Assembly: GCF_001469875.2 (NCBI RefSeq)
Contig: NZ_LOPW02000001.1
Coordinates: 1 to 64,000, forward strand
Length of the DNA stretch: 64,000 nt
Direction: 5' to 3'
From: Haloferax marisrubri
Lineage (GTDB): Archaea > Halobacteriota > Halobacteria > Halobacteriales > Haloferacaceae
The position numbers and the translations under genes were made by a program. The notes below the pieces were generated by a model. That model was given only the letters and a program-made list of their open reading frames with translations. It did not search any database and was not told where the DNA came from. Shown in pieces: positions 2 through 14,675 of the stretch (position 1 is its first letter; every line of letters begins with the position of its first letter).

Positions 2-1540
2 GAGGCGACGGGGCGCGCGGGACCGGTCCGCCGCGCGGCCGCCGAAACCGGTCTCGCGGAGGGCGCGTCTCGAAGCGCCGACTACGGCGACGCGCTCCGG
101 GCGGTCGTCGGCCCGACGCTCGCGCGCTCCCGCGTCGACCCCCGCCCCCCAGCCGACGGGCGACTCGTCGGGACGACCGACCTCGACACCGGCGCAGTCG
201 CCCGCCGGTACGAGTGCCCGCGCGGCCCCGTCTACCACCTCACGCCGCCCGAATCGACGCTCGACCAGCGCGCCGCGCGCACGCTCGAAGCCGCCCACGA
301 CCAACTCGCCCGCGGCGCTGTCGATGCCGGCCCGCGCGCGCCGGGGCGCGCCGTCAGACTCGTCGCAGAGCCGGACGACCCGGTCGAGACGCTCGCGGCG
401 ATTCTGGCGAAGCACACCGCGGGCCACGGCGTCCTCGACGACCTGTTTTCGGACCCCGCGGTCTCGGACGTGTACGTCTCGACGCCCGCCGACGAGAATC
501 CGATTCGCGTCGTCGCCGACGGCGTCTCGATGCCGACGAACGTCCGCCTCGCGCCCGACGGCGCGGAGTCGCTCGCCTCTCGCCTGCGGCGCGTGAGCGG
601 CGCGTCGTTCTCCCGCGCCGACCCGACGCTCGACACCGTGGTCGAGGCCGGCGGCGCGAGCGTCCGGGTCGCGGGCGTGACCGCGCCCGCCAGCGACGGT
701 CTCGGGTTCGCGTTCCGCCGTCACGACGAGACGCCGCTGACGCTCCCCGCGCTCGTCGCCAACGGAACGCTGTCGGCCGACGCCGCGGCGCTCTGCTCGC
801 TCGCGGTCGAACGCGGTGCGTCAGTCCTCGTTGCCGGCTCCCGCGGGGCCGGCAAGACGACGTTCCTCGGGTCGCTCCTGTGGGAGCTCCTGCGCGACGT
901 TCGCACGGTTCTCATCGAGGACACGCCCGAGCTTCCGGCGTCGAGCCTGCTGGACGCCGGCCGCGACGTGCAGACGCTCCGAACCGATACGACCGGCGGC
1001 CCGGAGCCGACGCCGCAGGAGGCGCTCCACGCGGCGCTCCGACTGGGCGACGGCGCGCTCGCGCTCGGTGAAGTTCGCGGCGCAGAGGCCGCCGTCCTCT
1101 ACGAGGCGATGCGAGTCGGCGCGAACGCCAACGCGGTCCTCGGAACGATTCACGGCGACGGAGCCGCCGACGTGCGCGAGCGCGTCGTCTCCGACCTCGG
1201 CGTCCCGGCGTCGTCGTTCGCCGCCACCGACCTCGTCGTCACCTGCGAACACGCGGACGCACACCGCGTCGCCCGCGTCGAGGAGGTCCGCCCCGTCGGC
1301 GACGACGCGGCGTTCGAGACGCTGTTCGAACACGACGGTCGCGCCCTCGAACCCACGGGGTCGGTCGCGCGCGGCGACAGTCTCGCGGTCGAATCCGTGG
1401 CCCGCCCCGGCGAGTCGTACGCGGACGTGCTCGACGCGCTCGACGCCCGCGCCGCCCACCTCGATTCGCTCGCCGCGACGGAACGGACGACGCCAGACGA
1501 CCTCGCCGCGGCCCGCGCGGAGCGTGGTTCGGGATGCTGA
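2..1540 (+). CDS. Type II/IV secretion (TadA/VirB11-like) ATPase, 5' partial
   Basis: Motor ATPase that would power assembly of a type IV or Tad-like pilus from the cytoplasmic face of the membrane. The reading frame is open from the first bases of the window, so the N-terminus is missing; 512 codons are visible. Walker A (GSRGAGKTT) is at visible residues 279-287, followed by the Asp box (TVLIEDTPEL), a Walker B-like LGEVRGAE and the His box TIHGDG. This order is that of secretion ATPases. The stop overlaps the start of the next gene (a membrane platform protein) by 7 bases, the usual ATPase-platform pairing. The substrate is inferred from the downstream pilin-like genes. Confidence 0.9.
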   Translation, partial: EATGRAGPVRRAAAETGLAEGASRSADYGDALRAVVGPTLARSRVDPRPPADGRLVGTTDLDTGAVARRYECPRGPVYHLTPPESTLDQRAARTLEAAHDQLARGAVDAGPRAPGRAVRLVAEPDDPVETLAAILAKHTAGHGVLDDLFSDPAVSDVYVSTPADENPIRVVADGVSMPTNVRLAPDGAESLASRLRRVSGASFSRADPTLDTVVEAGGASVRVAGVTAPASDGLGFAFRRHDETPLTLPALVANGTLSADAAALCSLAVERGASVLVAGSRGAGKTTFLGSLLWELLRDVRTVLIEDTPELPASSLLDAGRDVQTLRTDTTGGPEPTPQEALHAALRLGDGALALGEVRGAEAAVLYEAMRVGANANAVLGTIHGDGAADVRERVVSDLGVPASSFAATDLVVTCEHADAHRVARVEEVRPVGDDAAFETLFEHDGRALEPTGSVARGDSLAVESVARPGESYADVLDALDARAAHLDSLAATERTTPDDLAAARAERGSGC

Positions 1541-3303
1541 ACCCGGACACGACCACGAGCGCGAGCGCGGACTCCGGTGCGAACCACTTGCTTCACTCGG
1601 CCGCGACGACGCTCACGCGGCTTTCGCCCGACTCCATCGACGCCGACCCGAGCGACGAGCTCTGCCGGTCGCTCGCGTTCCTCGGCTCGAACCTCGCCCC
1701 CGAGACGGTCGTCGCCGCGGGCTACGGCGCGGCCGCCCCCGCCGGACTGCTCGGCGGACTCGTCGCCCTCCTCGCTCGGCTTCCGACCGTGACGGTCGTC
1801 TTCGTCGCGCTCGCGGCCGCGCTCGGTGCGGCGCACGCGATTCACACGCTGCCGGTCTGGCTGGCGACCCTCCGCCGGACGCGGGCGCTCGGAAACGCGC
1901 CGGAACTCGTCGGTCGCATCGCGCTCCGGATGCGCGTCGAACCCTCTGTCGAGCGGGCCAGCGCGTTCGCCGCGCGCGGCGGGGACGACCCGCTTTCGGC
2001 CTCACTCGCCGCGCACACCGACCGCGCCCGCGGGACGCCGACCGCGGGGCTCTCCGAGTTCGCCGACGCGTGGCGCGCGTGGTTCCCGGCGCTCGACCGC
2101 TCGACTGCGCTCCTGCAGACCGCCGCGGACGTTCCCGCCGGCGAGCGCGACCGGGCGCTCGACCGGGCCCACGAGGTCGTCCGCGAGGGGACCCGCGACC
2201 GCCTCGCCGACTTCGTCGGCTCCGTCCGCGGGCCGGTGACGGCGGTCTACGCCTTCGGCGTCCTGCTCCCGCTCGCGCTGGTCGGCGCGCTCCCGGCGGC
2301 CCGCGTCGCCGGCGTCGGCGTCACCGCCGCACACGTCGCCTTCGTCTACGACGTGGCGCTTCCCGCGTGTCTCCTCGCCGCGGTCGGGTGGGTGCTCGTC
2401 CGCCGGCCGGTCGCGTTCGCGCCGCTCTCGGTCGATGCGTCTCACCCCGCGGTCGACGACCACCGCCACGTCGGCATCGTCGGTGGCGCAGTCGCCGGTG
2501 TCGTCGGCTTCGTCGCCGCCGACGCGCTCGTCGCGCCGTGGCTCGCGCCGCTCGCCGCCGGCGGCCTCGGAACCGGGACCGCGCTGTTCGTCGCGGCCCG
2601 CCCGGTCGTGGCGCTCAGAGCCCGCGTCCGCGCGGTCGAAGACGGCCTCTCAGACGCGCTCTACCTCGTCGGCCGCGCCGTTAGCGAGGGCGAAGCCGTC
2701 GAATCCGCGCTCGCCCGCGCGGCGACCTCGGTCCCGGGCGAAACCGGCGACCTGCTCGACGAAGCCGTCGGCGTCCAGCGCCGCCTCCGCGTGGGCGTCG
2801 TCGAGTCGTTCTGCGGCGAGTACGGCGTCCTCGAATCGACGCCGAGCCCACGCGTCGCGGGCGTGGCGACGCTTCTCGGACTCGCCGCCAGCGAGGGCCG
2901 ACCCGCCGGTCGCGCGATCGTCTCGATGGCCGACCAGCTCTCGGCGCTCTCCCGACTCGACGCCGAGGCCCGCCGCGAACTCGCGTCCGTCACGGAGACG
3001 CTGTCGAACACGGCCGCCGTCTTCGGGCCGCTCGTCGCCGGCGCGACCGTCGCGCTCGCCGACGGGATGGGCCCCGCGAAGTCGCTCGACCAGACGGCCG
3101 TCGCCGCGCCGCTTTCGACCGCCGACCTCGGGCTAGCCGTCGGCGCGTACGTCCTCCTCTCGGCGGTCATCCTGACGACGCTCTCGGTCGGCGTCGAACA
3201 CGGCCTCGACCGTCATCTCGTGGCCTCTCGCGTCGGCCGCGCGCTCGTGTCGGCGACGACGACGTTCGCGCTCGCGTTCGCCGCCGCGGGAACACTCGTC
3301 TGA
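1534..3303 (+). CDS. Type II secretion F-domain membrane platform protein (TadC/PilC-like)
   Basis: Inner-membrane platform partner of the upstream ATPase. The 589-residue product has clustered hydrophobic segments (about residues 65-100, 235-300, 315-355, 490-550 and the C-terminal 30) around two soluble helical regions, the pattern of a protein with two T2SSF domains as in archaeal FlaJ/PilC/TadC. The start ATG lies inside the end of the ATPase gene, so translation is probably coupled. No separate promoter is seen. The assignment rests on topology and neighbourhood; single-residue signatures of the domain are weak. Confidence 0.85.
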   Translation: MLNPDTTTSASADSGANHLLHSAATTLTRLSPDSIDADPSDELCRSLAFLGSNLAPETVVAAGYGAAAPAGLLGGLVALLARLPTVTVVFVALAAALGAAHAIHTLPVWLATLRRTRALGNAPELVGRIALRMRVEPSVERASAFAARGGDDPLSASLAAHTDRARGTPTAGLSEFADAWRAWFPALDRSTALLQTAADVPAGERDRALDRAHEVVREGTRDRLADFVGSVRGPVTAVYAFGVLLPLALVGALPAARVAGVGVTAAHVAFVYDVALPACLLAAVGWVLVRRPVAFAPLSVDASHPAVDDHRHVGIVGGAVAGVVGFVAADALVAPWLAPLAAGGLGTGTALFVAARPVVALRARVRAVEDGLSDALYLVGRAVSEGEAVESALARAATSVPGETGDLLDEAVGVQRRLRVGVVESFCGEYGVLESTPSPRVAGVATLLGLAASEGRPAGRAIVSMADQLSALSRLDAEARRELASVTETLSNTAAVFGPLVAGATVALADGMGPAKSLDQTAVAAPLSTADLGLAVGAYVLLSAVILTTLSVGVEHGLDRHLVASRVGRALVSATTTFALAFAAAGTLV

Positions 3304-3326: not shown

Positions 3327-3334
3327 TTTATATA
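3327..3334 (+). promoter_or_regulatory. TATA box for the secreted pilin-like gene run
   Basis: A clear TTTATATA lies about 27 bases before the ATG at 3358, so the transcript probably starts at or next to the start codon. It gives the secreted-protein genes a promoter of their own, separate from the ATPase and platform genes. Confidence 0.7.
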
Positions 3335-3357
3335 CTCGAACGGGACCACCCCGGTCT

Positions 3358-3828
3358 ATGCTCGACGCACCGCTCGATACGCTCTACACGTGGGCCGCGC
3401 TCTCGCTGGCCGCGACCGTCCTCGTCGGGGCGGTCGCTGGCCTCCCGACGACGCCCGCGCCCGACGCCTCGGGAGTCGCCGACGCCGTCGACGCCGTGGC
3501 CGTTGCCGAGTACGACGCGACCGCCGAACACGACCTCGAAGCCGACGCTGTCCGCCTCGGCGCGCACCGAATCGGTCTCCGAAACGACGGCGGCGCGGCA
3601 CACGCCACGTTCGCCTTCGGCCCGGTGACGCCGGCGACGCCCGACTCCCGACTCGGGTCGGTCGCCGCCGGCGCGTCCCCGAGCGCCGCCTTCGACTCGC
3701 CCGCCGCGTTCGCCGCCGCGGCCGAGACCGCCCGCGACCGGAACGCCTCGTGGCACCCCGTCAGCGAACCGCTTGTCGTCCGCCACATCAGTTGGGAGGG
3801 AACGGATGTCACCGTCGTCTCGGCGTAG
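3358..3828 (+). CDS. Secreted/anchored pilin-like protein, unknown family
   Basis: Small 156-residue protein with one N-terminal hydrophobic helix (about residues 10-30) and an Ala/Asp-rich soluble remainder. It is the first gene after the TATA box and its end overlaps the next start. I do not recognise the family with certainty. Position directly after secretion ATPase and platform genes, together with the N-terminal helix, suggests a minor pilin or TadE-like pseudopilin. There is no obvious classical signal-peptidase site. Confidence 0.65.
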   Translation: MLDAPLDTLYTWAALSLAATVLVGAVAGLPTTPAPDASGVADAVDAVAVAEYDATAEHDLEADAVRLGAHRIGLRNDGGAAHATFAFGPVTPATPDSRLGSVAAGASPSAAFDSPAAFAAAAETARDRNASWHPVSEPLVVRHISWEGTDVTVVSA

Positions 3829-4204
3829 GGCGCAGACCTCGCCCGTCGCCGCGCTCACCGCGCTGTTCGTCGTCTGCGCGGCGATTTCGGGCTACGCGAC
3901 GGTCCTCGACGACTCGTTACCGACCGCCGACCGCGACCTCGCGCCCGCGACGCTGTCGAACGTCGAGTCCGCCCTCGCCGACGACTCGGGCGTGGTCGTC
4001 AGTTCGCGGCTCTCGGACGCGCTCGACGCCTGTCCGGACGGGTTCTCGTGTCGCGTCGTCGTCGCGGTCGACGGCGACCGCCGCGCTGTCGGCCCTGATT
4101 CGCCAACCGACGCCGACGCCGACGCCGATTCGACTCGCGTCAGCGTCCGCGTCGAACCCGGTCGCGTCGGCTTCGGAACGCTCCGGGTCGAGGTGTGGCG
4201 ATGA
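3806..4204 (+). CDS. Prepilin-like small exported protein
   Basis: The product has 132 residues if translation starts at the ATG at 3806, which is preceded by a GGGAGGGAA ribosome-binding stretch inside the previous gene. The N-terminus has a basic run followed by SPVAALTALFVVCAA. This resembles haloarchaeal type IV prepilins (basic residues, then SPVIGVILMV-like helix), with a possible cleavage after RRRA. The rest is acidic and contains one Cys pair (CPDGFSC) that could form a disulfide. The stop overlaps the next ATG (ATGA). The pilin role is inferred from motif and context. Confidence 0.7.
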   Translation: MSPSSRRRAQTSPVAALTALFVVCAAISGYATVLDDSLPTADRDLAPATLSNVESALADDSGVVVSSRLSDALDACPDGFSCRVVVAVDGDRRAVGPDSPTDADADADSTRVSVRVEPGRVGFGTLRVEVWR

Positions 4205-5082
4205 CCGACCTCGTCTTCGACGTGACGGTGTGTCTGTTACTCGTGAGTGCGAGCGTCGGCCTCGTCGTCACCGCGGACGCCGGCGCGAGTACAAGCGCCG
4301 ACCACGCCGCTATCGACGCCGACGGGGTCGCCTCGTCGCTGGCGACGAGCACCGCCACGGTCAACTACTCGCTCGCCCCCGGCGTCGAAGTCGCGGACCC
4401 GTCGCTCCTCGATGCCGGCGGCGTCGACCCCCGCGAACTCGACCGGACCGCCCACGGCAGTCTGGCCGGTCTCCTCGCCCGCGCGACGCTCGGTGCGACC
4501 ACCATCGACGGCGTTCGCCTGACCCGCGCCCGCGACGATTTCCGGACGCGGACCGCCGCTCGCGTCGCCTCCGAACTCCCGACCCGCGGCGTCTCCGTCG
4601 CCGTCGCATGGACGCCGTTCCCCGGTGCGCCGGTCCGCGCGACCGACACGCTCGGTCCCGAACCGCCGTCCTCGACGACGGTCCACTCCGCGACGCTCGA
4701 CGTGCCCAGCGGGTTCCCCGCGGCGCGAGACGACGCTGTCGCCGCCAGCGACGACGGCTTCGACGCCGTCGCTCGCGTCGTCGCAAATCGAACCGTCTCG
4801 GGGCTGTTTCCGCCCGCGCTCGCTCGCCTCGCGCTCCGCGGCGACGAACCGGTTTCGACGCTGATGACCCATCGGTACGAACGGGCCGGGGCGCTGGTGA
4901 ACGCTTCCGTCGCGCCCGAGGTCGCCCGCGAGGAGACTCGCGTCGCCAACGCCGACCTCGCGGCGGCGCTGGCCCCGCGCTTCGCCGACGCGATGCGCGC
5001 CCGGTACGACACCCCGCGCGCCGCCGCCGAGGCCGTCTCGGTCGGACGCGTCACCATCGTCGTCAGGACGTGGTCGGCGTGA
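4201..5082 (+). CDS. Exported protein with N-terminal membrane helix, pilus cluster
   Basis: The product has 293 residues from the ATG at 4201, chosen because it overlaps the previous stop as ATGA; a GTG two codons upstream is possible. The N-terminal helix spans about residues 5-25. The remainder is extracytoplasmic-looking, rich in Ala, Arg and Thr, with a few N-x-S/T sequons (NYS, NRT, NAS). No known catalytic motif is visible. It ends in a GTGA overlap with the next gene, so the four genes 3358-8135 look translationally coupled. Probably a structural or assembly factor of the same surface appendage. Confidence 0.7.
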   Translation: MTDLVFDVTVCLLLVSASVGLVVTADAGASTSADHAAIDADGVASSLATSTATVNYSLAPGVEVADPSLLDAGGVDPRELDRTAHGSLAGLLARATLGATTIDGVRLTRARDDFRTRTAARVASELPTRGVSVAVAWTPFPGAPVRATDTLGPEPPSSTTVHSATLDVPSGFPAARDDAVAASDDGFDAVARVVANRTVSGLFPPALARLALRGDEPVSTLMTHRYERAGALVNASVAPEVAREETRVANADLAAALAPRFADAMRARYDTPRAAAEAVSVGRVTIVVRTWSA

Positions 5083-8000
5083 GGCTCGCCGACGACGACC
5101 GCGGTCGGGTTCCCTTCGCCCTGCTCGGCGTGTTGCTCCTCGTCGGGAGCGCGACGTTCTCCGGCGCGCTCGCGGGTCACGACCCCGTGGCCGACCGCCG
5201 GGTCGACGACGCGATGGACCGCGCGACCGCACAGGCCGACGCCGCCGTCCGCGCGGCTGTCGGCGACGCGGCGCGCGAGGCCGCGGCGAACCCCGTCACC
5301 TCGCCCGCGAACACGACCGTCGGACGACTGCTCTCCGAGGAGCGCCCCTTCCGCGACTATCTCAGGCTCCGCATCGCTCTCGCTGCGACGGAGCGACTTC
5401 GGGCCGTCTCCGTCGCCCGCGGCGGCGTGAACGCGACCGCGAGCCTGCCGCGACCGACCAACGAGTCGGCTCTCCGCGAGGCGATGGACCGCGTCTCCAT
5501 CTCGGGCCGCGAGAACGGCACCGTCCTCGTCGCGACCGTCGACAACGTCTCGGTCGAAGTCGTTCGCGGCGGTCGCACCGTCGCCACCGAGTCCGTCACC
5601 GCGACGGTCGGCGTCCGAACGCCCGTCCTCGCGCTCCACGACCGAACCGAGTCCTTCGAGTACCGTCTCGACGCGAACGCGCTGGACGGCGGGACGCTCG
5701 ACGCGACGGTGACGACGGCGCTGTGGGCGTCGGCGTGGACTCGCGGTTGGAGCCAGTACGCCGGCGCGCCCGTGGACAACGTCGTCTCGAACGACCACGC
5801 CGCGCTGGCGACGAACGCCGGCGTCCTGCTCGCCGAACAGCAGGCGTTCGGGGCGACTGACGCCGACGCCCGCGGGGCGACCGGTCGCGCCGCCGTCCAC
5901 GCCGGTGCCCAGAGCCTGCTCTCGCAGACCGGCGTCCCTGCCGCGCCCGAACTGGCGAACGCGCTCCCCGCACCCAATCCGTCTGCCGAGTCAGCCGCGA
6001 GCGAGGTTCCGACGAACCGGACCATCAACGCCTCCGTCGGCTCCGCGGCCGACCACGCGCTGGTCGGCCTTCTCGACGGCCACGGCGACGCGCCCGCTTA
6101 CGACGACGTGGTCGCGGACGCGCACCGGGCCGCAGTCGCAGTCGAAGCCGACGCGACCGTCGTCGCCCGGAGCGACGACCCGCCGGTCGACCTCGGCCGC
6201 GAGTGGGACCTCGTCGAGACGACGACCGAGACGGCGTCGTCGGTCGAGACGGTGGCGACGCGAACGCCGGCGCTCGAAGCCGACACAACCGTCGTCGTCG
6301 CCGGCTCCCGAATCGTGACGACGAGCGAGACGACCACCCGAACGTGGCGGCGGGGTAACGAGACGTTCCACACCGACGAGACGACGGAGACGAAGACGCG
6401 CGTTGACCTCGCGGCCGTCGTCGACCCGACGGACCTGTCCGCCCCCGCGCGACCCATCGACCCGGCGGTCGAACCCGGCGGCGCGCTCGACGGCGAGAAC
6501 TTCGCCGCGGCCGCCGCCGCCGCCGAGGACGCGGTAGCGACCCGCGGCGGGTTCGACGACCTCGCCCGCGACGTTGCCGAGGGGGACGCGCCCGAATCGA
6601 ATTACGCCACCGCACCGACGGCTCCCGGCCTCGACGGCTGGATTCGCGCTGACCTCGTCGCGCTCGCCGACCACGTGAAAAACCGGAGCGTGACGGTGTC
6701 TGCCCGGCGGGTCGCCGCGGGCGAGCTGAATCCCGCCGCAGAGCTCGCGTCCGACCTGCGCGCCGACCGCCGCGAGCTCGTCGGCGCACCGGCCGCCTAC
6801 GACGGCGTCGCCGACCGGGCGCGAGTCGCGGTTCGCGCCGCCTACCTCGACCGCGTGCTGGCGGCGCTCGACCGCCGGGCGAACCGGACCGCGGCGGCGA
6901 CCGGCGCGGCCGACGACGCGAGCACGGACGCAGCTATCGGGTCGCTCTCGAAGGCGGTCCGTGCCGAGGAGGTCGCCCGCGCGGCGCTCGGTGAGACGCG
7001 AGCAGACGGCGCGAACGGAACCGGCAACGAAACCGGCGTCCGGTTCGTCCCCGACGCGGACCCGATGTACCTCTCGCTCGGCGGTCTCTCGGGGGCCGCG
7101 ATTCCGACCGTCTCCCGCGGCGGCACCTACCACTCGCTCGTCGCCCGCAACACCAACCTGTTCACGCTTCCCTACGGCGATGCCGCAGACACCGTCCTCG
7201 AACCGGTGTTCGGCGCGAACCGCCGCGTCCCGCTCCGCGTCGCGGCCCGCGCGCTGCTCGCCGCCGACTCGACGCTCGCGGCGACGAACGGGACGAACGA
7301 GACGCTCGCCGACCGGCGCGACAGGCTCGAAACCGCGGTCGACCGTTCGACCGTCCCCGCCGAAGAGGCCGCTGAGGACGCGCTCCGCGTGCACACCAAC
7401 CGCTCGGTGACGGAACGCCAGCGGATTCTGGAGCGCTCGCTCGGCGCGTGGGACGACCCGGCCCACCGGGCGCTGGCGGTCACGAACGGCTCCGCGGCGC
7501 GCGCAATCGCCGTCGAGACTGCCGGGGCGGGAACCGTCGAAGCCGACCTCCTCGAACGACGCCTCGACGAGGCGTTCCGAACCGTCCGCCGGGACCGCTC
7601 GACGACGGTCTCACAGCGGCTCACGAACCGGACCGTCGAGACGACGCGAACCGCCCGCCAGCAGGCCCTCGCCGACATGGCGACCGATGCGGCGATGAAC
7701 GCCACTAAGGATGCGGTCGCCGACCGCGTGAACGACACGCTCGACTCGCGGTTCGGGAAGTCGTTCAAGCGCGTCCCCGCCGGGATGCCGGTCGCGCCCG
7801 TCCCGGGGTACTGGTACGCGACGGTCAACGTCTGGGACGTGTCGGTCGCCGGCGAGTTCGCGCAGTTCCGCGTCCACGCCCGCGGCGACGCCGAATCCCT
7901 CACGTACGCCCGCGACGGCTCGACCGTCGCCCTCGACTGGGACGACGACGGCGTCGCGGAGACGCTCGGCCGCGGCGACCGCGTCGCGTTCGACGTGGAG

Positions 8001-8135
8001 ACGGCAATCGTCGTCGCGGTACCCCCGTCGGGCGTCGGCGTCGGCGACATCGACGGCGACGCGGACGAGCGTTCCGAGGGCTGGGCGGGCGGTCCGGGCT
8101 GTACCGTCGCGGCCGACTGCCGCGCGACCGAGTAG
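5079..8135 (+). CDS. Very large single-helix surface protein (TadG-like candidate)
   Basis: About 1018 residues. Although the frame is open much further upstream, the start is set at the GTG at 5079 because it overlaps the previous stop and puts a single hydrophobic helix (PFALLGVLLLVGSATFSGAL) at residues 12-31, right behind a short charged head, as in pilin-type proteins. The rest is a long, acidic domain with many N-x-S/T sequons and no second membrane helix. It most resembles a haloarchaeal-only family of pilus-cluster proteins. Functionally it may be a tip or adhesin subunit comparable in layout to bacterial TadG. That comparison is inference. Confidence 0.75.
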   Translation: MRLADDDRGRVPFALLGVLLLVGSATFSGALAGHDPVADRRVDDAMDRATAQADAAVRAAVGDAAREAAANPVTSPANTTVGRLLSEERPFRDYLRLRIALAATERLRAVSVARGGVNATASLPRPTNESALREAMDRVSISGRENGTVLVATVDNVSVEVVRGGRTVATESVTATVGVRTPVLALHDRTESFEYRLDANALDGGTLDATVTTALWASAWTRGWSQYAGAPVDNVVSNDHAALATNAGVLLAEQQAFGATDADARGATGRAAVHAGAQSLLSQTGVPAAPELANALPAPNPSAESAASEVPTNRTINASVGSAADHALVGLLDGHGDAPAYDDVVADAHRAAVAVEADATVVARSDDPPVDLGREWDLVETTTETASSVETVATRTPALEADTTVVVAGSRIVTTSETTTRTWRRGNETFHTDETTETKTRVDLAAVVDPTDLSAPARPIDPAVEPGGALDGENFAAAAAAAEDAVATRGGFDDLARDVAEGDAPESNYATAPTAPGLDGWIRADLVALADHVKNRSVTVSARRVAAGELNPAAELASDLRADRRELVGAPAAYDGVADRARVAVRAAYLDRVLAALDRRANRTAAATGAADDASTDAAIGSLSKAVRAEEVARAALGETRADGANGTGNETGVRFVPDADPMYLSLGGLSGAAIPTVSRGGTYHSLVARNTNLFTLPYGDAADTVLEPVFGANRRVPLRVAARALLAADSTLAATNGTNETLADRRDRLETAVDRSTVPAEEAAEDALRVHTNRSVTERQRILERSLGAWDDPAHRALAVTNGSAARAIAVETAGAGTVEADLLERRLDEAFRTVRRDRSTTVSQRLTNRTVETTRTARQQALADMATDAAMNATKDAVADRVNDTLDSRFGKSFKRVPAGMPVAPVPGYWYATVNVWDVSVAGEFAQFRVHARGDAESLTYARDGSTVALDWDDDGVAETLGRGDRVAFDVETAIVVAVPPSGVGVGDIDGDADERSEGWAGGPGCTVAADCRATE

Positions 8136-8193: not shown

Positions 8194-8613
8194 ATGTTGC
8201 ACGACGCCGCCGCGGAGCCCGGAACCCTCTCGGCCGACGAGTTGCGAGCCGCCTACGAGGACGAGATTCGCCGCGCAGTCGACGCTACAGGGCCGGAGAC
8301 AGCCGCCGAGGCCGCCGGCGTCTCGGAAGCCGCGCTCTCGAACGGCGTGTTGGACCTCACGCTCGAACAGGCCGCCGCGGTCCTCGAACTCGCCGACGAC
8401 AACCCCGACGCCGACGCCATCGTCTGGGAGTTCCGCGACCACCTCCTCATGGGCATGACGAGCGGCATCCTCGACGTTGACACGCTCGCGTCCGAGGTCG
8501 ACCTCGACCTCTCCGGACAGGAGATTCAACAGGCAATCGAGGGTCGCACCGCCGCCACGCTGAACGAACTGGCCGCCATCCACCACGTCATCGCCGTCCG
8601 AAACGAACGATGA
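8194..8613 (+). CDS. Small conserved haloarchaeal protein (DUF5791-like)
   Basis: The 139-residue acidic soluble protein is helical, with a stretch reminiscent of an HTH (about residues 28-60: AAEAAGVSEAALSNG, then LTLEQAAAVLELADD). I recall this as the haloarchaeal DUF5791 family, but no function is known to me. Its stop overlaps the ATG of the epimerase gene (ATGA), so both are made from one message. Confidence 0.75.
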   Translation: MLHDAAAEPGTLSADELRAAYEDEIRRAVDATGPETAAEAAGVSEAALSNGVLDLTLEQAAAVLELADDNPDADAIVWEFRDHLLMGMTSGILDVDTLASEVDLDLSGQEIQQAIEGRTAATLNELAAIHHVIAVRNER

Positions 8614-9506
8614 ACGTCGCCATCCTCGGCTGTGGCTACGTCGGCCTCGAACTCGCCCGCACGCTCGTCGCCGACGGCCACGACGTGTGGGGCGTCCGCC
8701 GCTCCGACGACGGCCTCGCCGCCATCGAAGCGACCGGCGCGGAGGCGGTCCGCGCCGACGTGACGGACGCCGACTCCCTCGGGGCGGTCCCCGACGTGGA
8801 CCACATCGTCTTCGCCGCGAGTTCCGGCGGGCGGGGGGCCGACGCCGCCCGGACCGTCTTCGTCGATGGCCTCCGAACGGCAATCGACCACTTCGCCGCC
8901 CGCGACTCGCCGCCCGAGCGCCTCGTCTACACGTCGAGCACGGGCGTCTACGGCGACCACGACGGCGACTTCGTGGACGAGTCCACACCGCTCGACCCGA
9001 CGACCGACAAGACGCGCGTCCTCGCCGAGGCCGAGCGCGTCGCCCGCGAGCACGCCGCCGAGCGGGGAATCGAGGGGACCGTTACTCGGTTCGCCGGGCT
9101 CTACGGTCCCGACCGCTACCGACTCGACCGCTACCTGACCGGCCCGGTCACGGCGGGCTACCTCAACATGGTCCACCGGGACGACGCCGCGGGCGTCGTC
9201 GCGTACCTCCTCGAAACCGGCCGCGCCCGCGACGACACCGTCCTCGTCGTCGACGACGAACCCGTCTCGAAACACGAGTTCGCGGATTGGCTGGCCGACG
9301 AGTGCGGCGTCCCGCGCCCCGAAAAGCGCACGAAGGAAGAACGCCTCGACGCGGGCGACCTCTCGGAGGCCGCTCGCCGCCGCATCCTGACGAGCAAGCG
9401 CTGTTCGAACGACTACCTCCGCGAACTCGGCTATTCGTTCTCGTATCCGACGTATCGGGAGGGCTACCGGGCCGCAATCGACGCCTACCGGGCGGGCGAC
9501 GACTGA
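8610..9506 (+). CDS. NAD(P)-dependent epimerase/dehydratase (extended SDR)
   Basis: Rossmann-fold oxidoreductase of 298 residues, probably acting on a nucleotide sugar or similar carbohydrate. The NAD-binding motif GCGYVGLELA is at residues 7-16. The SDR serine and tyrosine appear as YTSSTGVYG around residues 109-117; the catalytic YxxxK is not obvious (the tyrosine is followed by GDHD), so it belongs with atypical YeeZ-like SDRs. It is coupled to the preceding DUF5791-like gene. The substrate cannot be read from sequence. Confidence 0.85.
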   Translation: MNVAILGCGYVGLELARTLVADGHDVWGVRRSDDGLAAIEATGAEAVRADVTDADSLGAVPDVDHIVFAASSGGRGADAARTVFVDGLRTAIDHFAARDSPPERLVYTSSTGVYGDHDGDFVDESTPLDPTTDKTRVLAEAERVAREHAAERGIEGTVTRFAGLYGPDRYRLDRYLTGPVTAGYLNMVHRDDAAGVVAYLLETGRARDDTVLVVDDEPVSKHEFADWLADECGVPRPEKRTKEERLDAGDLSEAARRRILTSKRCSNDYLRELGYSFSYPTYREGYRAAIDAYRAGDD

Positions 9507-9573
9507 GCGTATTCGCGGCTCGATAGGTTCGAACCGCCGAAATTCTGTCAATCAGGACAACTCGATTAGGGGG

Positions 9574-9583
9574 AATATTCATA
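9574..9583 (+). promoter_or_regulatory. Probable TATA box of the DHH phosphoesterase gene
   Basis: AT-rich AATATTCATA centred about 29 bases before the ATG at 9608 in a GC-rich surround, consistent with a leaderless transcript. Confidence 0.5.
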
Positions 9584-9607
9584 CGGTAGGCCCCGGTCGT
9601 GTTGTGT

Positions 9608-10792
9608 ATGTTCGGTCCGGTGGGGCAGTTCGACACGGGTGCTATCTTCGAGTCTATCGACTCGTTCGTGCGCTCGCACCCCGAAATCGCGGCGGCGCTC
9701 GTCGTCGCGCTCGGTGCCCTCGCGCTCGTCGTCTACGCCGCGATTCGGTTCAAGCGGCCGATGGGCACGCGCTTCGCCGAGGCGCTGGAGGACGTCGACG
9801 AGGTCGCCGTCCTCATGCACCCGAACCCGGACCCCGACGCCATGGCCGCGGCAATCGGTGTAGCCTGTCTCGCAGAACAGGTCGGGACCACACCGACAAT
9901 CCAGTTCGCCGGCCAGATTCGACACCAGGAAAACCGCGCGTTTCGCACCGTTCTCGACCTCGACTTAGACCCAATCGACCACGTGAGCGACCTCGCCGCC
10001 GAGGCGGTCGTCCTCGTCGACCACAACTCCCCCCGCGGCTTCGCGGGGGCCGAGGGCGTCCTCCCTTACGCCGTCGTCGACCACCACCCCGGCGACGGGA
10101 CCGGCGAGGCGTTCACCGACGTGCGGACCGACTACGGCGCGTGTTCGAGCATCATCGCCGAGTACTTCCGCGACGTGGGCGCGAAACCCGTCCCGCCGGA
10201 CATGCACGCCAGCGAGGTGAACGCCTCGTACACCGTCCCGTCACAGGTCGCGACGGGCCTCGTCTACGGGATTCTCACGGACACCAAACACCTCACCGCG
10301 GGCTGTTCGGCCGCCGACTTCGACGCCGCCGGCTTCCTCTTCCCCGGCGTCAACGAGGACCACCTCGACCGCATCGCCAACCCCGAGGTCTCCCGCGAGG
10401 TGCTGGAGGCGAAGGCGCGGGCCATCGCCGGCCGCGACGTGCGCGGTCCCTTCGCCGTCGCCGACATCGGCACCATCTCGAACGTCGACGCCATCCCGCA
10501 GGCGGCCGACGAACTCATCCAACTCGAAGGCGTCACCGCGGCGGTCGTCTGCGGCGAGCGCGAGAGCAACGTCTACCTCTCGGGGCGTTCCCGCGACGAC
10601 CGAGTCCACATGGGCCGGACGCTGGAGGCCGCGCTCGACCACTACCGCGGGGCGAGCGCCGGCGGCCACGCCCGGATGGGCGGCGGCCAGATAATCCGCC
10701 CCGACGCCGTCACCGACGGCGGCAACGGCGAGTCCATCGCCCGCGACGAACTCCTCGAACACATCTTCGAGGCGCTGTCGGGCGATATCTAA
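9608..10792 (+). CDS. Membrane-anchored DHH-family phosphoesterase
   Basis: Metal-dependent phosphoesterase of the RecJ/NrnA superfamily, 394 residues. One membrane helix spans residues 27-45. The DHH domain follows, with HPNPDPDA at 71-78 (metal ligands His71, Asp75, Asp77), VDHN near 137-140 and the diagnostic DHH at 158-160. The DHHA1 domain ends with GGHARMGGG. Such proteins degrade short oligonucleotides or cyclic dinucleotides; the membrane anchor recalls GdpP, but no GGDEF or PAS part is present. The ATG at 9608 is preferred over a GTG three codons upstream because it fits the TATA spacing. Confidence 0.88.
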   Translation: MFGPVGQFDTGAIFESIDSFVRSHPEIAAALVVALGALALVVYAAIRFKRPMGTRFAEALEDVDEVAVLMHPNPDPDAMAAAIGVACLAEQVGTTPTIQFAGQIRHQENRAFRTVLDLDLDPIDHVSDLAAEAVVLVDHNSPRGFAGAEGVLPYAVVDHHPGDGTGEAFTDVRTDYGACSSIIAEYFRDVGAKPVPPDMHASEVNASYTVPSQVATGLVYGILTDTKHLTAGCSAADFDAAGFLFPGVNEDHLDRIANPEVSREVLEAKARAIAGRDVRGPFAVADIGTISNVDAIPQAADELIQLEGVTAAVVCGERESNVYLSGRSRDDRVHMGRTLEAALDHYRGASAGGHARMGGGQIIRPDAVTDGGNGESIARDELLEHIFEALSGDI

Positions 10793-10827
10793 TCCGCAGA
10801 CCGCCGTCCCGGACCCGGACCGGTGGC

Positions 10828-10836
10828 CCTTAACCG
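10828..10836 (+). promoter_or_regulatory. TATA-like element of the aldo-keto reductase gene
   Basis: CCTTAACCG about 26 bases before the ATG at 10858 fits a leaderless haloarchaeal promoter. Confidence 0.45.
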
Positions 10837-10857
10837 TCGGCCGCCATAGGCCCGCCC

Positions 10858-11949
10858 ATGGCTACAGGACGGGCGACGTGGGCCTACCGCGACCGGTTCG
10901 GCGACAGTTTCGGCCGCACCTTCTACCGCCGGTTCGGCCCCGGCGTCGTCTCCAGTATCGGCATCGGAACCTACCTCGGCGAGCCGACCGACGCGGTCGA
11001 CGACCGCTACCGCGAGTCGCTCGTCTCCGCGCTCGAACACGGCGTCAACCTCATCGATACCGCGTCGAACTACCGCCACGGCCGCGCCGAACGAGTCGTC
11101 GGCGACGCGGTCCGCGGGGCCGACGTCGACCGCGACGCCGTCGTCGTCGCCTCGAAGGCCGGGTTCGTCCCCTTCGACCGCGAGCGCCCCGACGACCCCG
11201 GCGCGTACGTCCGCGAGACGGTCCTCGACGCCGGTCTCGCCGACGCCGACGAACTCGCCCACGGCAGTCACACCATCGCGCCCGCCTTCGTCGACGAGAT
11301 GGTCGACCGCTCGCTCGACCTGACGGGACTGGACCACGTCGACTGCTACTACCTCCACAACCCCGAGACGCAACTGGCAATCGCCGACCGCGAGACGGTG
11401 TACGACCGCGTCGAGGCCGCCTTCGAGGTCCTCGAACGCCGGGTCGCCGGCGACGACATCGGTCGCTACGGCGTCGCAACGTGGGAGGCGCTCCGGGTCG
11501 CGCCCGACCACGACGCGTACCTGTCGCTCCCCGAACTCGTCCATCGGGCCGAGCGCGCGGCAGAAACCGTCGGCAACGACGAACACTCGCTCGAAGCGAT
11601 TCAGCTCCCGTTCAACGTCGTGATGGCCGACGCGTTCACCGTCGAGGCCCACGACACCGACGCGGGCGAGGCGATGAGCGCGCTCTGGTACGCCCACGAA
11701 CACGGCCTGCACGCCTTCACGAGCGCCAGCCTCGCGCAGGGCGACCTCGCGGCGGAGATTCCGGCGTCGGTGAACTCGGTGCTCGCCGGCGACACGGCGG
11801 CCCAGCGGGCGCTCAACTTCTCGCGGAGCGCGCCCGGCGTGACCGCGGCGCTCGTCGGCGCGTCGTCGGTAGCACACGTCGCGGAGAACATCGCGGCCGG
11901 CACGTTCGACCCCCTCGGGGCGCGGACGTTCGATTCGGTGTTCGAGTGA
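10858..11949 (+). CDS. Aldo/keto reductase family oxidoreductase
   Basis: A 363-residue TIM-barrel NADP-dependent reductase. The catalytic tetrad is readable: Asp67 and Tyr72 in LIDTASNYRHG, Lys100 in VVVASKAG and His167 in YYLHNPET. The length is close to the larger AKR members. Substrate and physiological role are not evident; the neighbours are a phosphoesterase and a zinc-finger microprotein with no shared pathway. Confidence 0.9.
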   Translation: MATGRATWAYRDRFGDSFGRTFYRRFGPGVVSSIGIGTYLGEPTDAVDDRYRESLVSALEHGVNLIDTASNYRHGRAERVVGDAVRGADVDRDAVVVASKAGFVPFDRERPDDPGAYVRETVLDAGLADADELAHGSHTIAPAFVDEMVDRSLDLTGLDHVDCYYLHNPETQLAIADRETVYDRVEAAFEVLERRVAGDDIGRYGVATWEALRVAPDHDAYLSLPELVHRAERAAETVGNDEHSLEAIQLPFNVVMADAFTVEAHDTDAGEAMSALWYAHEHGLHAFTSASLAQGDLAAEIPASVNSVLAGDTAAQRALNFSRSAPGVTAALVGASSVAHVAENIAAGTFDPLGARTFDSVFE

Positions 11950-11994
11950 GCGGACGCCGGTGCCCGTCGAGCGCCCGCAGTCGGTCGGTTCGTC

Positions 11995-12165
11995 TTATCT
12001 GAGCTCTTTCCACTCGCGCCCGCAGTCGGCGCAGATGCGAAGGGAAAACACCTCGTCCGGGTCGTTCTTCTTCTTCAGCGACTCGCCGCACTCGGAACAG
12101 GTCAGTCGTCCGTAGGTATCCTTCTCCAACTCCCCGTCTCGAAGCCCCTTCCGCGTTGTCTTCAT
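11995..12165 (-). CDS. Zinc-finger microprotein, HVO_0758 type
   Basis: A 56-residue protein with two C-x2-C knuckles, CSEC at residues 23-26 and CADC at 45-48, spaced to bind one zinc. The ATG at 12165 is chosen over an upstream TTG. The sequence matches my memory of HVO_0758 of H. volcanii, a structurally studied zinc-binding microprotein reported to affect biofilm and swarming. That link is from memory and is the best anchor for placing this window. It is convergent with the aldo-keto reductase gene. Confidence 0.9.
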   Translation of the reverse strand: MKTTRKGLRDGELEKDTYGRLTCSECGESLKKKNDPDEVFSLRICADCGREWKELR

Positions 12166-12288
12166 AAGCGTCCGTTTGTGCAACGAACATAAAAACCCGA
12201 CGACGACCCCCCGTTTTCGTCCCGCACGACGCCCCGACGGCCTCGTTCAGTCGAAAGTGTTGTCACCTCGCGGCGCGCGCTTTCGTCC

Positions 12289-13485
12289 GTGTCACGTGGC
12301 CGCCTCTTCGGAACCCTCTGTGGGATGGTGCTGCTCGTCAACCTCGCACGGGTCGTCTTCGCACCGCTTCTCGGGGAGTTCATCACGTTTTTCGAGGTCG
12401 ACCGCGCCACCGTCGGCATCGTCGCCACCCTCGTCTGGCTCGGGAGCGCCGCCCTCCGCGTCCCGACCGGCTGGCTCCTCACCCGCGTTCCGAGACACCG
12501 CGTGGTGCTCGGGACCGGCGTCGTCCTCGTCGTCGCCTCGGGCGTGACCGCCAGCGCGACCACCGTCGAGACGCTGATGATTGGCGCGGTCTCGATGGGT
12601 CTCGCCTCGGGCGCGTACTTCGTCGCCGCCAACCCGCTCGTGAGCGAACTGTTCCCCGACCGCGTCGGCCGCGCGATGGGCATCCACGGCACCGCCAGCC
12701 AGCTCGCGGCCGTCGGCGTCGCCCCCTTCGTCACGCTCGTCCTCGCGGTCGGTCCCGACCTCGTTCCGCGCCTCCCGTTCGTCTCCGCGGCGTGGCAGCT
12801 CGTCTTCGTCTGCGTCGGCCTCGCGGCCGCCGCCGTGACTCTCGCGCTGTTCTTCACGGCCCGCTCGACGGACCTCCCCGACGCGGGCGCGGCCGACCGC
12901 GACCTCCTCGGCGCGGCCCGCACCGAGTGGCGCGTCATCCTCACCGGCATCGTCATCCTCGGCTTCACCGGCTTCGTCTGGCAGGGCCTGTTCAACTTCT
13001 ACGAGCTGTACATGGTGTCGAAGGGGCTGCCAGCCACGACGGCGCGCAACATGCTGACGGTCATCTTCGGCGCGGGCGTGCCGGCGTTCTTCCTCTCGGG
13101 GCGACTCGCCGACAAACTCCCGCGTATCCCGTACATCCTCGGCGTGCTCGTCTCCTTCGTCGTCTCGGTGTTCGTCCTCACGATGACGACGAGCCTCGTC
13201 GGCCTCCTCGTCGTCACCGCGGTCGTCGGCTACGTCATCCACAGCCTCTTTCCGGCGCTCGACGCCTACCTGCTCGACACGCTCCCCGACGAGAGCCGCG
13301 GGAGCGCCTACTCGGTGTACTCGTTCGGCATGATGATATTCCAGGCCAGCGGGTCGGGCGCGGTCGGCACCCTGACCGACTTCGGCTACGCGTTCGACGA
13401 GGTGTTCTTCTGGTTCTCCGTTGGGCTGGCGGTCGTCGTCACGGGCCTCATCGCCTTCCAGCGCGCCGGGCGCATCCCGAACTGA
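12289..13485 (+). CDS. Major facilitator superfamily transporter
   Basis: A 398-residue polytopic membrane protein with about 12 hydrophobic helices in two halves separated by a charged loop near residues 190-215. It begins at a GTG and has an MFS-type loop 2-3 region (VPTGWLLTRVPRHR). Homologues are nitrate/oxalate-type or drug-type carriers, but no substrate signature is clear. It stands alone between a microprotein gene and a glycosyltransferase gene. Confidence 0.85.
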   Translation: MSRGRLFGTLCGMVLLVNLARVVFAPLLGEFITFFEVDRATVGIVATLVWLGSAALRVPTGWLLTRVPRHRVVLGTGVVLVVASGVTASATTVETLMIGAVSMGLASGAYFVAANPLVSELFPDRVGRAMGIHGTASQLAAVGVAPFVTLVLAVGPDLVPRLPFVSAAWQLVFVCVGLAAAAVTLALFFTARSTDLPDAGAADRDLLGAARTEWRVILTGIVILGFTGFVWQGLFNFYELYMVSKGLPATTARNMLTVIFGAGVPAFFLSGRLADKLPRIPYILGVLVSFVVSVFVLTMTTSLVGLLVVTAVVGYVIHSLFPALDAYLLDTLPDESRGSAYSVYSFGMMIFQASGSGAVGTLTDFGYAFDEVFFWFSVGLAVVVTGLIAFQRAGRIPN

Positions 13486-13568
13486 GCGGCCCGGCGGCGG
13501 TCGAACGAAGTCGGCAGACGACTCGGCTCTCGCCGCACTTTTGCTCGCCCGGTCCCACGACCGACACG

Positions 13569-14675
13569 ATGGAGTACGTACAAGAGCGGGTCACGACGCT
13601 CCACGACCTCTCGGGCGCGGTCCCCGACGCCCCGACCGACCGCGCCGCCGTGGTCGTGCCGATGACGGAGCGGGAGTACGCCGGCCTCGCCGCCGAGCGG
13701 GTGCTCTCGACGCTGGAGTCGCTCTCGCCCGCGCGGGTCGTCGTCCCCCTCCGCGCGCCCGCCGACCGGGTCGCCCCGTTCGCCGACTGGCTCGACGAGT
13801 ACGACCTGCCGCTCGACGTGCTGTGGTGCGACGGTCCCCGCGTCGCCGACCTGCTGGACTCCCACGACCTTGACGGCGAGCGCGGCAAGGGCCGCGACGT
13901 GTGGCTCGCGCTCGGCTGCGCCGCCCGCGAGGAGTACGTCGTCGTCCACGACGCGGACACGAAGACCTACGACGAGCGCTACGTCCCGCGGCTCCTGTTC
14001 CCGCTCGCGCACGGCCACGACTTCTCGAAGGGCTACTACGCCCGCGTCGAGGAGGGGCGGCTCTACGGCCGGCTGTTCAGGCTGTTTTACGCCCCGCTCG
14101 TCCGGGCACTCGAGGACGAGACCGACGCACCAATCGTCCGGTATCTCGACTCGTTCCGGTACGCCCTCGCCGGGGAGTTCGCGGCCACGTCCGACCTCGC
14201 GTTGCAGATGCGGTCGCCGCGGAAGTGGGGCCTCGAAGTCGGCACCCTCGGCGACGCCTTCGCCCACGCCGGCTTCGACCGGAGCGCGCAGGTCGACCTC
14301 GGCGAGTACGAACACGACCACCGCTCCGTGAGCGGGCCGACCGGCCTCTCGGACATGAGCGAGTCCGTCGGGCGGACGCTCCTCAGAGCGGTCGTGGAAC
14401 ACGGCGGAAGCGTCGAGTTCGACACGCTCGCCGACCGCTACCGCGAGGCCGGGAACAGACTGGTCGAGCAGTACGCGGCCGACGCGGCGTTCAACGGCTT
14501 CGACTACGACCGGGGAGACGAGCGCGAGCAGGTCGCCACCTACGCCGAGGCCATCTCGAAGCCCGGCGAGGACACGCGGCTCCCGGCGTGGCGGGACACC
14601 TCGCTGTCGCCCGACGAGGTGCTTTCCGCCGCGAGCGACGACCTCGACGACGTCCGGGAGGCTGCGGGCCGATGA
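13569..14675 (+). CDS. Glucosyl-3-phosphoglycerate synthase-like glycosyltransferase
   Basis: A GT-A fold glycosyltransferase, 368 residues, related to GpgS/MpgS (GT81/GT55) enzymes that make glucosyl- or mannosyl-phosphoglycerate, the precursors of glycerate-type compatible solutes. Supporting motifs are GKGRDVWLALG (donor-binding GKG segment) and VVHDADTKTYD with the DAD metal-binding triad around residues 130-135. The start is the ATG at 13569; the frame is open upstream but only as a shadow of the MFS gene. It overlaps the next gene by four bases. No matching phosphatase gene lies nearby, so the product is inferred. Confidence 0.75.
   Translation: MEYVQERVTTLHDLSGAVPDAPTDRAAVVVPMTEREYAGLAAERVLSTLESLSPARVVVPLRAPADRVAPFADWLDEYDLPLDVLWCDGPRVADLLDSHDLDGERGKGRDVWLALGCAAREEYVVVHDADTKTYDERYVPRLLFPLAHGHDFSKGYYARVEEGRLYGRLFRLFYAPLVRALEDETDAPIVRYLDSFRYALAGEFAATSDLALQMRSPRKWGLEVGTLGDAFAHAGFDRSAQVDLGEYEHDHRSVSGPTGLSDMSESVGRTLLRAVVEHGGSVEFDTLADRYREAGNRLVEQYAADAAFNGFDYDRGDEREQVATYAEAISKPGEDTRLPAWRDTSLSPDEVLSAASDDLDDVREAAGR

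Follow-up and report, generated by a model that had tools for sequence, protein, structure and literature searches.

The closest described counterpart of the locus studied here is the haloarchaeal pilB2/pilC2 regulon, which adjoins the tubulin gene cetZ2 in most Haloferacales and Halobacteriales and has near-constant flanks, a hypothetical gene and an epimerase gene (PMC9856176). The locus has been catalogued (Makarova 2016; Brown & Duggin 2023), and the literature consulted assigns no function to PilB2/PilC2 or to the connection of CetZ2 with it. Makarova et al. predicted a stand-alone major pilin for archaeal type IV pilus (T4P) subclade 4F, and Haloferax volcanii PilB2 has been placed in 4C, not 4F (PMC6491452). 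Here we analyze a 64,000-nucleotide stretch (the window; C1:1-64000) at the start of contig C1 of a 3.9 Mb Haloferax-like genome, where a secretion ATPase and platform pair (the motor) is followed by a block of four genes, DUF7283, DUF7285, DUF7284 and DUF7286. With a probability of roughly 0.72, we read this locus as a PilB2/PilC2 T4P-like system with a co-inherited DUF7382 pilin, in which the block proteins are companions of the motor.

The neighbouring tubulin, present beside the locus in Haloferax relatives, scored 677 bits against PDB 4B45, which is H. volcanii CetZ2 (PMC9856176), and 320 bits against CetZ1, while the other flank, a DUF5791-type gene and an epimerase gene, lies in the window itself. 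Because the CetZ2 neighbour and the flanks are those described for the regulon, the window locus is the catalogued haloarchaeal PilB2/PilC2 regulon beside cetZ2. Identity with PilB4 (HVO_1160) was rejected, as a locus of this genome with a 1114-amino-acid ATPase frame fits PilB4 better and proximity to cetZ2 indicates pilB2.

The features of an archaeal T4P that we found are an assembly ATPase, a platform protein, proteins with class III signals and a prepilin peptidase. The ATPase carries its catalytic motifs (Walker A GSRGAGKT, GEVRG and TIHG), its N-terminus is cysteine-rich, and its partner at the locus is a coiled-coil protein. A direct Pfam scan of the platform was negative; profile-profile comparison (hhalign) with this genome's PilC/ArlJ paralogs matched it at 98% probability over 555 columns, with 0.1% for the reversed control. 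In the ATPase tree, whose groups, ArlI included, were labelled by gene context, the platform-paired enzymes of haloarchaea and methanogens form one clade (98/99); neither the ArlI clade nor the remaining PilB-type ATPases of this genome fall within it. Judged from sequence and comparison, the ATPase and platform form a clade of their own among type IV filament motors. A prepilin peptidase (PF01478) is encoded in the window's genome, and in loci L134 and L136 one adjoins the same ATPase-platform pair.

Evidence that the block belongs with this motor comes from 145 near-complete genomes of Halobacteria and a comparison set of about 242 genomes from the rest of the phylum. The platform was detected in 105 of the 145 Halobacteria, and every one of these 105 encodes DUF7286 and all but one DUF7284 (104/105). 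DUF7286 was found in five further Halobacteria, as fragments in four of them (G012, G055, G066 and G124) and within an intact block in the fifth, G044. Outside the Halobacteria, DUF7286 occurs in 35 genomes and the platform in 37, with both in 33; the assemblies of the two genomes that have DUF7286 only are incomplete, and of the four platform genes found alone, two are split or stop-ridden. Where methanogen loci were read, the motor and DUF7286 lie unlinked in the genome, and proximity therefore does not explain the co-occurrence. By gene content, the predicted block proteins are obligate companions of the motor.

The candidate main pilin lies elsewhere. Downstream of the ATPase-platform pair, Methanocella-like genomes encode a small protein that has a class III leader and carries an immunoglobulin (Ig)-like domain, and in two of the three Methanocella-like loci a Pfam-confirmed prepilin peptidase is encoded in the same neighbourhood. 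Plasmid pHTUR04 and other haloarchaeal loci have homologs of this protein close to the same motor, several of them divergent from a gene for a HerA-like ATPase. A DUF7382-pilin profile recovered the family in all 105 platform genomes and in four others. In Haloferax the gene is unlinked to the machine locus, and among 30 fetched pilin loci 21 have the HerA-like neighbour. Decay runs in parallel as well: the G055 pilin is a fragment and the G012 pilin has lost its leader, and the machine loci of both genomes are also decayed. Together, these distributions show the predicted DUF7382 pilin to be co-inherited with the PilB2/PilC2 system, and DUF7382 is likely the system's main pilin, encoded elsewhere in the genome. 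On pHTUR04 itself (L112, Haloterrigena turkmenica), positions 8822-13689 hold the pilin, DUF7311, ATPase and platform genes, with a HerA/DUF87-family gene near and DUF7283-7286 absent.

Coordinates are collected in Table 1. All four block products belong to Pfam families of unknown function, each scoring far over its cut-off; the genes overlap by 23 bp, 4 bp (ATGA) and 4 bp (GTGA), and a simple hydropathy scan found one N-terminal hydrophobic segment per product. The genome's relatives found here are all Haloferax, with 69-93% identity in DUF7286. In longer Haloferax contigs the order is a divergent cetZ, the DUF7310 coiled-coil gene, DUF7311, ATPase and platform, followed by DUF7283, DUF7285, DUF7284, DUF7286, DUF5791 and the epimerase gene; DUF7310, DUF7311 and the divergent cetZ2 fall outside the window and occur in every Haloferax relative whose contig reaches that side. 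The machine gene order recurs in haloarchaeal families f1, f2, f3, f4, f6, f7 and f8. DUF5791, present in 144 of the 145 Halobacteria with or without the machine, is probably not a machine component. Two loci have DUF7283 relocated 3′ of DUF7286 (L067:12558-13070 and L068:2416-2928), and in L223 of genome G044 DUF7285-7284-7286 stand beside cetZ2, with a second CetZ near and without ATPase or platform. A check for a phage origin of DUF7286 gave zero matches in 50,697 phage records, and we found no paper that mentions DUF7283-DUF7286.

Table 1. Features of the PilB2/PilC2 locus and related loci; locations are window positions unless another locus is named.
Feature	Location	Strand	Evidence and remarks
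PilB2-type secretion ATPase (VirB11/GspE family)	2..1540	+	PF00437, 3e-15; 5′ end cut by contig start
PilC2-type platform membrane protein (TadC/FlaJ-like)	1534..3303	+	7 hydrophobic segments; paralog profile match
TATA box TTTATATA, predicted leaderless promoter of four-gene block	3327..3334	+	begins 31 bp 5′ of DUF7283 ATG
DUF7283 protein, 156 aa	3358..3828	+	PF23954, 178 bits; single N-terminal helix; cleavable basic leader absent
DUF7285 protein, 132 aa	3806..4204	+	PF23956, 111 bits; class III (PibD-type) signal RRA/QTSPVAAL
DUF7284 protein, 293 aa	4201..5082	+	PF23955, 303 bits
DUF7286 giant protein, 1018 aa, GTG start	5079..8135	+	PF23957, 1005 bits; prepilin-like head RG/RVPFALLG
DUF5791 protein, cetZ2 flank	8194..8613	+	PF19104; fits arCOG04674 by position
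NAD-dependent epimerase/dehydratase, conserved flank	8610..9506	+	PF01370; fits arCOG03095 by position
Candidate DUF7382 pilin, 147 aa	G000:C4:54132-54575 (approximate)		leader TRA/IEGLPVRL; own TATA-like box; divergent from HerA-like gene
Decayed machine copies between cetZ2 and DUF5791	L085, L086, L087, L168		

The block appears to have its own conserved leaderless promoter. Scored as a match of at least 7/8 within -32 to -28 of the start codon, a TATA box precedes DUF7283 in 30 of 41 haloarchaeal loci, where shuffles expect 0.1, and it precedes none of 160 control starts (platform, DUF7285, DUF7284 and DUF7286). The motif, TTTA[AT]ATA or TTTAAGTA, lies 30-31 bp 5′ of the DUF7283 start in loci of all haloarchaeal families sampled. 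In the two loci where DUF7283 has moved, a TTTAAGTA box now stands before DUF7285, about 40 bp 5′ of the ATG chosen by our script.

Prepilin-like heads are unevenly distributed over the four products. DUF7285 keeps a basic-[GA]-Q/V head in 41 of 42 alignment rows and DUF7286 an R[GA]-x-[VIL]PF head in 43 of 45, with the start codons of relatives chosen by script, so that single cases may be off. DUF7284 carries an R[GA][VI]S class III leader in most families; in Haloferax and several f1 relatives it starts at the mature position, its leader lost and its start codon overlapping the DUF7285 stop. No family conserves a basic leader before the helix of DUF7283. DUF7286 holds 19 N-X-S/T sequons, compared with 4.6 ± 2.0 in shuffles, and among the other three proteins only DUF7284 has an excess (3 vs 0.6 expected). 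The first-pass annotation, made from the window's letters alone, had described four overlapping genes with one N-terminal helix each, prepilin-like heads on the second and fourth products, a sequon-rich fourth product of about 1018 residues and a separate promoter with its TATA at 3327; all of this agrees with our gene calls, hydropathy, alignments and promoter scoring. The co-occurrence of the six genes across haloarchaea, for which it had proposed a check, was likewise found, and the six are syntenic there.

Taking leaders, size and co-inheritance together, we propose that DUF7382 would form the shaft, DUF7286 the tip, and the other three block proteins minor pilins. PibD would cleave the DUF7382 pilin, DUF7285 and DUF7286 at their class III leaders, and a PilB2 hexamer working on PilC2 would lift DUF7382 subunits into the filament. 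DUF7283, DUF7285 and DUF7284 would serve as minor (pseudo)pilins that prime the filament, the large glycosylated DUF7286 would cap it as an exposed tip or adhesin, and placement of the base may fall to CetZ2 and the coiled-coil protein DUF7310.

Several observations weigh against this reading. Genome G108 encodes the pilin but lacks the machine, and G044 has an intact DUF block with no platform detected in the genome. The Fisher p values for the co-occurrence (1e-28 to 1e-34) ignore shared ancestry. A cleavable leader is absent from DUF7283 in every family and from DUF7284 in Haloferax, so that not all four block proteins can be PibD substrates; of the window's four, no more than two are likely to be. 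AlphaFold2, run with Haloferax-only alignments, gave poor models of DUF7286 and DUF7284 (predicted local distance difference test, pLDDT, of 43 and 50), with which Foldseek returned no match at E ≤ 0.001; its SecB matches to DUF7286 were weak (best E 0.05). Profile searches of the platform, DUF7283, DUF7284 and DUF7285 against PDB sequences gave nothing credible.

The same parts could instead make a short, type II secretion-like pseudopilus that pushes proteins out, with DUF7286 as the tip of a piston extended periodically, or as the cargo itself. Four helix-headed proteins running from small to large recall a pseudopilin set, the window block contains no PilA-family gene, and among solved ATPases the nearest is 2oap, whose annotation reads 'Type II secretion system protein', with FlaI and CpaF ranking behind it. 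However, a dedicated pilin with an Ig-like domain is present in 105/105 platform genomes and the haloarchaeal locus has no conserved substrate gene, and we consider a secretion pseudopilus unlikely, though it deserves to be kept in mind.

A second alternative concerns history rather than function. A view suggested in PMC9856176 is that some haloarchaea gained the regulon recently, as a mobile block inserted next to cetZ2, which would suit the patchy platform distribution (105/145), the motor pair copied on pHTUR04 and the many module-negative genomes in which cetZ2 directly adjoins DUF5791. We examined the regions 5′ of DUF5791 in 20 genomes (19 module-negative and G055), plus three further decayed loci. 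In four genomes from three families, DUF7286 C-terminal debris lies exactly between cetZ2 and DUF5791, and three of these four also keep debris of DUF7310 or DUF7311. These remnants, together with methanogen orthologs of the motor and of DUF7284-7286 and a coherent motor tree, favour an ancestral block that would have been lost repeatedly over one recently acquired, and recent acquisition now seems quite improbable to us. Given the remnants and the methanogen counterpart, the picture would shift from a recent gain to an old machine that many lineages have lost.

That the four DUF genes form an unrelated surface-glycoprotein operon merely adjoining the motor would be in keeping with the block's own promoter and the strong sequon enrichment of DUF7286. 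Co-occurrence with the motor even when unlinked, the class III heads and the joint decay speak against it, making this very hard to sustain. The first-pass annotation had pictured a Tad-like appendage distinct from both Pil and the archaellum: an appendage-type machine with prepilin-like proteins stood, as did the separation from the archaellum, whereas the locus proved to be a Pil system, the pilB2/pilC2 regulon. The archaellum was rejected because the ATPase falls outside the ArlI clade and reaches 71.7 bits with the FlaI model against a cut-off of 550. A Tad pilus is scarcely credible, for although no NCBIfam model fits the ATPase better than the TadA equivalog TIGR03819 and CpaF is among its solved matches, the score is 87.7 bits against a cut-off of 373, the type II secretion protein 2oap outranks CpaF, there is one platform gene in place of a TadB/TadC pair, and Flp pilin, TadZ and secretin had no match among the proteins scanned.

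Returning to the PilB2/PilC2 pilus reading, we found variation concentrated in its proposed tip. In two methanogen loci, orphan copies of the DUF7286 C-terminus lie downstream (L100:7456-17925 and L107:3-4384). Their proximal parts differ little from the main copy or from one another, their tips are about 30-60% identical, and each orphan copy is followed by a divergent small secreted sarcinarray (TIGR04209) protein. This pattern suggests that the DUF7286 C-terminus may be an exposed specificity tip exchanged by recombination, and the orphan DUF7286-sarcinarray cassettes point to a possible role for the NCBIfam sarcinarray family. A haloarchaeal orphan fragment of the DUF7286 C-terminus also occurs, about 1.5 kb downstream of a full gene and with 91% DNA identity (L080:13630-13923). 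Only tentatively do we extend these observations to an ancestral type IV filament machine, encoded at two loci and shared by Halobacteria and methanogens, with a DUF7382 shaft, a swappable DUF7286 tip, recombining sarcinarray-paired cassettes in some methanogens and, in haloarchaea, CetZ2 organizing the base.

Among known systems, Tad (Flp) pili have related ATPase and platform families, but the features that define Tad membership are absent here. The Haloferax PilB3-PilC3/PilA adhesion pili are of the same machine type and likewise have their pilin encoded in trans; they differ in their separate ATPase clade, and the candidate pilin here is DUF7382, not the PilA set. Subclade 4F (Makarova et al. 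2016) shares the cysteine-rich ATPase N-terminus, the coiled-coil partner, an FtsZ/CetZ-family neighbour and a stand-alone pilin. The H. volcanii pilB2/pilC2 regulon (PMC9856176, PMC4858521) has the same cetZ2 neighbour, ATPase, platform, several predicted pilins, large surface protein and flanks; it is the ortholog, and the locus itself shows no difference from it. What is new with respect to that regulon is the Pfam identities, the predicted block promoter, the methanogen counterpart, the unlinked DUF7382/HerA-like pair and the remnants of lost copies. A likely complete part list, including the unlinked candidate main pilin and its HerA-like partner, makes the function of PilB2/PilC2 testable in a model archaeon.

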